Assembly (NCBI GenBank): GCA_902791985.1
Contig: CADAYD010000018.1
Span: forward strand, 1-34,481
Length of the DNA: 34,481 nucleotides
Reading direction: 5' to 3'
Source of the DNA: an uncultured bacterium
GTDB lineage: Bacteria; Cyanobacteriota; Vampirovibrionia; Gastranaerophilales; Gastranaerophilaceae
Shown here: positions 20,940-23,251 of the stretch, one piece after another
How positions within the stretch are numbered: the first letter of the stretch is position 1
Layout of the letters: each line of letters begins with the position of its first letter
Made by a program: the position numbers and the translations under genes
Notes under the pieces: model-generated
Seen by the model: the letters and a program-made list of their open reading frames with translations, nothing else
What the model was told of the DNA's origin: nothing
Database searches by the model: none

Positions 20940-21677
20940 TTAGGTATGATTTCGTTTATATATATCTAAAAGGTTAGTTGTTTCATCTTCTTCAACATCA
21001 GGATTTGATGCAGGTTCTTCGATTTTTCCGCTTCCTTTCATTGAAGGATTTGAATTATCTTGAGTTTCAGTTTCTATTCCGTGTTTTTGGTTATATTTGT
21101 CCATCAATTTTTCAACTTTTCTGGCAAGAGGAGTAGCAATAAACGGAACAAGAATACGTTTAGCAACGATTGTTGCGGCTGCTAATTCAGTAAATGATTT
21201 GAATACTGAGAATGCAATTTCTTTCATTCCTAAGTGTTCATTGTGAATATCTGCATAAGTAGGAAGTTCTGATGCTGCCTGTCCTGCTTTTTTGCCGTTT
21301 ACACGAATTTGTTTACCAAATATTTTCCATGAACCGTTTTCAAATGATTTAAATATATGATTAAATAATTTAGTATTGATTTTTCTCATTGCAAAGAACA
21401 TTGCTATTTGAGAAGTAATCATTAAAATTCCGTTTGTAAGGTCAAGAGCGGAAACGAATTTTCTTCTCTTTTCAGGGATTTTTTCGTTATTTAAACTTTG
21501 ATAAACATACATTCCGCAACCTACGGCATCTTTTGCTGCAACGGATGCAATTGTTGTGTAAGCAATAATGTCATCAAAAGTCTTTCTGTTGATTTTTCCT
21601 TCCAAATTTCTATATGCTTTTAAATCGGCACCTTTACCTAAGGTATATGCAACAATTTTACTAATAGGGTTAGTCAT
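20940..21677 (-). CDS. Unknown membrane protein, partner of the F-T-G protein
   Basis: I do not recognise this 245-residue protein. It has hydrophobic, Ala-rich segments at about 35-59, 78-100 and 155-185, basic stretches between them, and a Pro/Glu/Asp-rich disordered C-terminus from about 200. The ATG shares one base with the upstream stop (TAATG) and has a very strong ribosome site (AGGAGGTGA) inside the preceding gene. This argues that it is made in a fixed relation to that protein and probably in larger amount. A terminator follows. It is likely a membrane-associated partner of the 524-residue protein. No enzymatic motif is seen. Confidence 0.8.
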   Translation of the reverse strand: MTNPISKIVAYTLGKGADLKAYRNLEGKINRKTFDDIIAYTTIASVAAKDAVGCGMYVYQSLNNEKIPEKRRKFVSALDLTNGILMITSQIAMFFAMRKINTKLFNHIFKSFENGSWKIFGKQIRVNGKKAGQAASELPTYADIHNEHLGMKEIAFSVFKSFTELAAATIVAKRILVPFIATPLARKVEKLMDKYNQKHGIETETQDNSNPSMKGSGKIEEPASNPDVEEDETTNLLDIYKRNHT

Positions 21678-23251
21678 TATTGCTCACCTCCTTCCGCTTG
21701 CTGCGGGGCATCTTTTTTGATACCTGCAAGTCCGGGGAAGAATATTTCCATAAATCTCGGATATACCCAGTTTAGAGCCGTACAAGTGATAGGTAATGTG
21801 ACAAGAACACCTACACCTACTTTGGTCAACTGTTTAAATAATCCGAATCGATGTCCTGCAAGTTCTTTGTAACAAGAAACCACATCGTTATAAATTTTTT
21901 CTGTTAATTTGTCGAAATTCGATAAAAATGCTCCGTTATCTTTAAAAATAAGTTTTAATTTTTCAAGTTCTTTTGGTTTGTCACTGTCTATGTAGCATAC
22001 ATCAATTAACTTGGTTATTGTCTCTTGAATATTTTTTGAATCAACTTTTGATAAGTCTTCAAATTTCAATGCTTCAAGTTTTTTAATGGTTTTTCTTAAA
22101 GTTTCATTTTTGTCGGTTAAATATTTATGATATTTATTCATATCAAATTTTTTATCAGGACCGCCCATTATATCGTGAATTTTATCGATACGATTCAATG
22201 TTTCAATGCAATTGCTTTCTCTAACCTGATCACATTGATTGATTATTTTGGTAAGAATGTTTTCTATTGCTTCATTAGGGGCATTTCTTTTACATTCTAT
22301 AAGGTAATCTTTTAATGCTTTAGGGTCTACATCCTTTGCACCGTCAGTAATTCTTGGTAATACATCAAGTTTATCTTTACCTAAGATTTCACGAAGTTCT
22401 TTTTCATTATCTATAAAATCTGCGGCATCGAAAACGTGTTCTTTTAATTTATCCTGAGGAATTTTTAAATCATTTGCTGCTCTGATGTAATCATCAATAT
22501 TGTTGTTAACAATCTGTGCTACATCGGCATCTTTTATGGTAAATTCACCCATTTTTATTGTACCGTCTTTTTTAAGACTTTCAATAATTGCTTCTTTTTG
22601 TTTTGTTATGATTCTTGTTTTTGCTTCTTCGACGGTTTCTTTTCTTACAGCTCCCGTTGGATTTCCTGCTTCATCTTTAACTTCAACATCTTCTAAAGGC
22701 AAATATCCTTTTTTCAACTGACGTTCAAGATATTTTTCATCATTTAATGATGTTTGGTTAAGTAATTTATTCCCGAAATATTTTGCTGTACCTTCTTCAT
22801 TTGTCAATTTCTGTAAGAATCTATCAATAGGCTCTTGTACACTCGCTTGAATTAAAATTGCAAGTGCTGCTGAAATAGGTTGTCTCCAAGCAGTATATTG
22901 TTTTGTTCTTCTGACTTCTGCTTTTTCTTCTTCTGTAGCATCAGGATCTGCTTTTACAAACGGATTAAATGCAATCGGTAGCGGAGCAACTAACCCTGTA
23001 CCTGCGGCTGTAATAACAATCCCGCCCATTTCACCTTTTGAAAAATCTTGAATCTTGTTCAAAATATTAAACCAACGCTGTTCACTTTTTGGCATTAATT
23101 TTAAAATCATATTTTGAATTTCGGACAATTTTGCACCGGTAAAGGAGGGTGTCGAACTCAAATAAGCACGACTTTGCGCTTGTTGACGTTTTATATTATT
23201 TTGCGCAGTAATGCCTCTTTGATAATTTTGATTAACAATATCTACTTTCAT
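21677..23251 (-). CDS. Unknown membrane protein with N-terminal P-S-F-T-G motif
   Basis: A 524-residue protein of unknown function. The first ~34 residues are Gln/Asn/Arg-rich and apparently disordered, ending in the motif TPSFTG (34-39). Hydrophobic segments follow at about 76-98 and 126-142, then a long charged helical middle (about 150-470) with several Asp/Lys-rich helices, and a final hydrophobic helix (478-498) leading to WVYPRFMEIFFPG. I recall the N-terminal 'x-F-T-G' motif as recurrent in many otherwise unrelated Gastranaerophilales proteins, where its role is unknown; a sorting or processing signal is a guess. It is coupled to the 245-residue gene. A palindrome of TTGTTAA/TTAACAA half-sites lies upstream. 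Confidence 0.8.
   Translation of the reverse strand: MKVDIVNQNYQRGITAQNNIKRQQAQSRAYLSSTPSFTGAKLSEIQNMILKLMPKSEQRWFNILNKIQDFSKGEMGGIVITAAGTGLVAPLPIAFNPFVKADPDATEEEKAEVRRTKQYTAWRQPISAALAILIQASVQEPIDRFLQKLTNEEGTAKYFGNKLLNQTSLNDEKYLERQLKKGYLPLEDVEVKDEAGNPTGAVRKETVEEAKTRIITKQKEAIIESLKKDGTIKMGEFTIKDADVAQIVNNNIDDYIRAANDLKIPQDKLKEHVFDAADFIDNEKELREILGKDKLDVLPRITDGAKDVDPKALKDYLIECKRNAPNEAIENILTKIINQCDQVRESNCIETLNRIDKIHDIMGGPDKKFDMNKYHKYLTDKNETLRKTIKKLEALKFEDLSKVDSKNIQETITKLIDVCYIDSDKPKELEKLKLIFKDNGAFLSNFDKLTEKIYNDVVSCYKELAGHRFGLFKQLTKVGVGVLVTLPITCTALNWVYPRFMEIFFPGLAGIKKDAPQQAEGGEQ

Follow-up and report, generated by a model that had tools for sequence, protein, structure and literature searches.

Chlamydial Inc proteins lack a classical signal peptide, begin with a disordered region ahead of a hydrophobic hairpin, and belong to lineage-restricted families. 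Encapsulation peptides and other cargo-loading tags are short sequences carried by unrelated proteins and joined through a disordered linker to a folded domain; encapsulation peptides are amphipathic helices. Fusion of two partners into one polypeptide is standard evidence for their physical association. We describe here a gene pair, called A and B, in a member of the Gastranaerophilales. These uncultured relatives of cyanobacteria are common in the gut, and a large part of their proteins have no known function. The stretch of DNA analysed (the window) is 34,481 nucleotides long, and the features of the pair are as follows.

21677 to 23251, minus strand: gene A, 524 aa, with a disordered tagged N-terminus, a hydrophobic hairpin, a long helical middle and a C-terminal hydrophobic helix
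23222 to 23251, minus strand: conserved extreme N-terminus of A, MKVDIVNQNY (in the family M-K-[VI]-[ED]-x-[IV]-N-x-N-Y; columns 17-28 of alignment A1)
23135 to 23149, minus strand: PSFTG tag, A residues 35-39 (in the family P-x-F-[TK]-G; F in 42/42 aligned rows, codons varying freely)
22967 to 23035, minus strand: hydrophobic stretch 1 of A, residues 73-95
22829 to 22897, minus strand: hydrophobic stretch 2 of A, residues 119-141, with invariant Y119, A121, R123-Q-P and S127-A
21752 to 21832, minus strand: C-terminal hydrophobic helix of A, residues 474-500, LPITCTALNWVYPRFM
21684 to 21693, minus strand: ribosome site of B, AAGGAGGTGA, within the last codons of A, where it encodes the C-terminal Gly-Gly of A
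21675 to 21679, minus strand: TAATG stop/start overlap joining A to B
20940 to 21677, minus strand: gene B, 245 aa, with a hydrophobic hairpin and a C-terminal long helix ending KRxxxP..ATPLA
21498 to 21566, minus strand: hydrophobic stretch 1 of B, residues 38-60, with invariant K49-D50
21384 to 21458, minus strand: hydrophobic stretch 2 of B, residues 74-98, with invariant D79, N82 and Q90
21126 to 21206, minus strand: C-terminal helix of B, residues 158-184, with invariant K173-R174 and P178
20874 to 20917, minus strand: intrinsic terminator hairpin 3' of B

A first-pass annotation had reported the two open reading frames of 524 and 245 aa, the TAATG overlap, a strong ribosome site and a terminator, all of which are borne out by the sequence (gene starts were set by a simple ribosome-site rule). 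One base is common to the TAA stop of A and the ATG of B, where the minus strand reads GGAAGGAGGTGAGCAATAATG. The transcript of the pair ends in a long hairpin with a U tail (-19.2 kcal/mol, z -7.2, equalled by none of 200 shuffles), which was absent from the output of a simple terminator scan.

The coupled genes A and B form a real and conserved unit that is specific to the order. Among 286 sampled genomes of the order, B was detected in 198 and A in 169. Wherever both genes were listed (139/139 genomes), B directly followed A on the same strand, which answers the question raised by the earlier reading of whether the two are conserved together in relatives. The overlap is exactly one base (TAATG) in 43 of 49 distinct pairs and a few bases in 5 more, compared to one-base overlaps in 36 of 608 same-strand neighbours in the sampled genomes. 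The Shine-Dalgarno sequence of B falls inside A in 44/49 distinct pairs, and it is because the ribosome site of B sits there that Gly-Gly occurs near the C-terminus of A in 38/49 pairs, against 2.4% of all proteins. This arrangement suggests that A and B are translationally coupled. The unit is kept while its flanking genes vary among genera, being either those for a thioredoxin and a sigma factor, or for a glycosyltransferase, or a YqfF-like gene (names that we assigned by eye from sequence), and the neighbourhood thus gave no functional clue. About 30% of genomes of the order are without a detectable B of the window type, and this branch is therefore not essential. We would like to note that the orthologue counts come from related genomes, which are not independent, and so exceed the number of independent events.

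A and B belong to a larger superfamily specific to the order, of which they form one branch. Its members occur as split pairs or as single fused proteins, with a homologous B module immediately preceded by a homologous A module to which it is coupled or fused. A profile of the B half matched 131/131 genomes within the order and 0/161 other Cyanobacteriota in a sample of the phylum. Separate searches with B gave no clear relative outside the order, apart from one marginal match (E 0.008). The description of the pair as lineage-specific thus holds. Split forms include a small pair (about 175 and 185 aa), a pair of 401 and 218 aa, and pairs beside what we take by eye to be a nadC-like gene, the last of which overlap by one base in 27/29 cases and by a few bases more in 2/29. 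Fused forms are single proteins of 344-693 aa with an A-like half followed by a B-like half (L231-L233, L239, L238 and the window genome's own L032). Homology of the B halves is secure (hmmsearch; hhalign 97.8%, E 9e-13). By hmmsearch with the A profile we recovered the small A' proteins and L229 (E-values of 1e-22 to 1e-45), and hmmsearch also found A''. Homology to A is weaker for the A halves in fused and nadC-type proteins (hhalign 68%, E 5e-5), where it is backed by an identical order of elements. No homology between A and B themselves was detectable (hhalign 0.4%).

The window genome has three members of this superfamily: the A/B pair, a second TAATG-coupled pair of 331 and 324 aa (L268:1378-3347, on contig C10 of about 43 kb) with the tags VSFGS and PSFKS, and a 344-aa A-like/B-like fusion (L032:971-2005, on contig C1) with YPAFTG at its junction. 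An apparent open frame of 24,078 aa on contig C3 of genome G006 (L235) was discarded, as it arises from masked N, which make up 12,001 of 20,000 bases there. Because fused homologues exist, it is very likely, on comparative sequence grounds, that A and B form one complex.

We then considered whether this complex is a membrane complex, as first proposed. AlphaFold models from family alignments (pLDDT 83.5 for A and 80.2 for B) are of good quality and all-helical, with short strands in A as the only exception. Residues 1-42 of A are disordered, with pLDDT below 50, in agreement with the earlier description of a polar, disordered N-terminus closing in TPSFTG. There are three hydrophobic stretches in A, as first noted, and three weaker ones in B, with family-median apparent dG values of 1.6 to 4.8 on a Hessa-type scale, where TrkH and YggT as membrane controls gave -3.0 to +0.6 and soluble controls in the window gave more than +6. 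Insertion is thus marginally predicted, and A and B are likely, by this sequence-based measure, to be membrane proteins; of the proposed membrane complex, the complex is strongly suggested by the fused homologues, while the membrane part is marginal. A possible though less favoured alternative is that the pair forms a soluble or peripheral helical assembly in which the hydrophobic stretches are core and not part of an integral membrane complex. The intermediate apparent dG, the conserved charges within the stretches of B (K49-D50, D79, K173-R174) and the long three-helix models of both proteins would all fit such an assembly, but the hydrophobicity of A and B clearly exceeds that of the soluble controls, and a hairpin of hydrophobic stretch, polar loop and hydrophobic stretch is kept throughout the superfamily.

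Searches for known relatives gave little. Neither protein had a match above the curated score in Pfam-A or NCBIfam, and no Pfam family matched more than 5 members among 45 and 51 orthologues (curated cut-offs being shown for the first member only). A PDB sequence search of A and B gave nothing convincing, Foldseek with both models found no match in the PDB at E 0.001, and no paper on either family was found in titles and abstracts.

The linker in which the PSFTG tag of A lies scarcely aligns among 45 orthologues, yet F is present in 42/42 aligned rows, G in 37, and the preceding P in 29/41. The motif occurs in 41/45 orthologues, compared to 6.1 expected when each N-terminus is shuffled; the N-terminal segment used was overlong for L092 and L099, which raises the expected value and not the result. 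The tag is missing from some deep orthologues (L094, L097, L099). All synonymous codons are used for it, and the constraint therefore acts on the protein. In the AlphaFold model the region has pLDDT below 50, with no helix over residues 17-39.

The tag is also found outside the superfamily. In an unrelated family of 299-aa orphan proteins (L105:918-1817 and relatives L304-L333), which begin MQ[IV]xx[IV] and continue to F-x-[GS]-[RK]-R-D, it is kept in 23/30 relatives compared to 6.1 expected, in forms including MQISAVTPNFQG and MQISSISPNFTG. For a tagged alpha/beta hydrolase, 8/8 of the closest relatives match the tag and most of the more distant relatives are without it; all 27 relatives together give 11 matches against 8.4 expected, which is not above chance. 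The tag additionally precedes amylase-like and aldose-epimerase domains and many orphan proteins. The amylase-like protein (L047:10221-11933) and the aldose epimerase (L104:4878-6089) have N-terminal extensions of about 75-80 residues with F-x-G. An orphan family of 555-586 aa (AWGANAVD...PRT; L050:1064-2761, L109:17397-19064, L261:10826-14275) has the same N-terminal tag, with two tagged members in tandem in genome G001. A protein of 1998 aa in the window genome (L048:11976-17972, contig C3), with no Pfam match at E 0.01, starts MRIYRVNSCTNFNG.

Enrichment across proteomes was assessed in about 1.2 Mb from three genomes (the window genome, G018 and G001), counting residues 5-52 of 750 proteins with non-hydrophobic N-termini and excluding the superfamily. 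A mixed sample (L081-L100), which had been taken around the A/B pair, was for that reason left out of the pooled tests. N-terminal FTG, the motif named in the first-pass annotation, was found in 16 proteins compared to 4.8 in shuffles (0/1000 reached this count), in line with the statement there that it recurs at the N-termini of many Gastranaerophilales proteins. The extended form [VPTNSI][STKAN]F[TKSNRQ]G, picked after hits had been seen in two of the three genomes, gave 18 compared to 3.7 (0/1000). In G001 alone, a genome sampled after the first tests, FTG was enriched 4.5-fold (p 0.0013). The proposed comparison with other positions was also run, and no excess was seen in internal windows, for reversed motifs or in an out-of-order control, a non-Gastranaerophilales genome of the class with a GC content of 0.51 against 0.31-0.34. 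The clear enrichment is limited to FTG and the extended motif in the pooled genomes. The loose class F[TKSNRQ]G was only 1.6-fold enriched, and many single F-x-G occurrences are therefore due to chance; a first test of this class in the window genome only had given a ratio of 1.05, or no enrichment, and F-x-G was not top-ranked in hypothesis-free k-mer scans. Proteins with the N-terminal motif more often have an M-x-[IV] start (odds ratio 3.4, p 0.0003, compared to 0.8 for the reversed motif), an association that was not significant within G001 alone.

Further copies of the tag lie internally, where the two halves of fused A/B proteins meet (NVNFNG, SINFTG, YPAFTG and others). Tandem repeats of it occur in L282 (genome G052) and L283 (genome G101), where three copies of PTFPN precede PTFEG. 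The N-terminal linkers of these two proteins contain near-perfect QQIPTFPN... repeats and end in PTFEGG.

From these patterns in sequence, the F-T-G motif looks like an undescribed address or docking tag. The earlier suggestion of a targeting or processing signal may hold in its first half; the junctional and repeated copies speak against cleaved processing, and for this reason we favour a putative docking or sorting motif in disordered linkers over a cleaved leader. Another reading, which we consider unlikely, is that the tag is an export signal for a secretion apparatus such as the flagellar type III route, and that the site of action of A and B is extracellular or a host membrane, as for chlamydial Inc proteins. 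Its N-terminal position in a polar disordered leader with no classical signal peptide visible, the hydrophobic hairpins, the tag-bearing enzymes and the flagellar-type proteins that we recognised by eye among the sampled open reading frames of the window genome would suit export, but the same internal and repeated copies would not, the tagged aldose epimerase and amylase-like protein, lacking a signal peptide, would be expected to be cytoplasmic, and no secretion apparatus was tied to the tag. Proteolysis at the tag, freeing the N-terminal linker or parting the halves of fused proteins, would account for its place at the boundary between disordered linker and folded module in A and between modules in fusions. 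We regard this as quite improbable, however, as it is not obvious why a cleavage site should be repeated in the form PTFPN...PTFEG, a separately conserved M-K-[IV] start is unexpected in a discarded leader, and no protease candidate was found. That the motif has no function and arises from amino-acid composition or from a DNA word, as might be argued from its being a single short motif with weakly enriched loose forms, is very hard to credit when shuffles that preserve composition never attain its count, the reversed motif shows no excess, every synonymous codon occurs, F is invariant in an unconserved linker and the motif recurs in an unrelated family.

We return to the docking reading and propose that A and B would be the subunits of a single helical complex that is probably associated with the membrane. 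Translational coupling would keep their stoichiometry fixed, as the ribosome site and start of B lie within and across the end of A. The pair is one branch of a Gastranaerophilales superfamily whose halves are made either as coupled pairs or as one protein. P-x-F-[TK]-G, at the end of the disordered N-terminal linker, would be a short linear motif with many copies in the proteome, and may dock A and other tagged proteins to a common putative receptor or cell site. We give this proposal as a whole, that is, a coupled helical complex of an order-specific superfamily with a putative docking motif, a probability of about 50%. A bolder version, which we hold to be doubtful, is that the Gastranaerophilales have a dedicated intracellular sorting or scaffolding system which recognises N-terminal and junctional P-x-F-x-G on a few percent of their proteins, and that the scaffold includes the coupled A/B pairs, which every member of the order would have and no other lineage. 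A motif common to unrelated proteins would offer a handle on many Gastranaerophilales proteins of unknown function together, as it predicts a common receptor or location, and the coupled or fused superfamily marks the order and is a clear target for structure determination.

Among known systems, BAR-type three-helix bundles resemble A and B in a superficial layout of long helices (best BAR Z 7.7 for A and 8.4 for B); such Z values are commonplace for helical bundles, the rmsd is 8-10 Å with no significant Foldseek match, and BAR domains and receptors scored in VIA-align as any long helices would be expected to. Chlamydial Inc proteins resemble the pair in the disordered N-terminus, with a hydrophobic hairpin after it, and in lineage restriction. 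As to the bilobed hydrophobic hairpin of Inc proteins, hairpins are present in A and B, with insertion marginally predicted by apparent dG. In contrast to Inc proteins, with which no sequence relation was found in the libraries searched, the A/B motif is also internal and repeated, and no secretion apparatus was linked to it. Like encapsulation and cargo-loading tags, the F-x-G tag is short, occurs on unrelated proteins and is joined by a disordered linker to a folded domain, but it is a Phe-x-Gly in predicted disorder rather than an amphipathic helix, and no shell protein was linked to it. NPF motifs and FG repeats are, like the tag of A, centred on Phe, placed in disorder and sometimes repeated, whereas the tag described here is bacterial and usually present as a single N-terminal copy.
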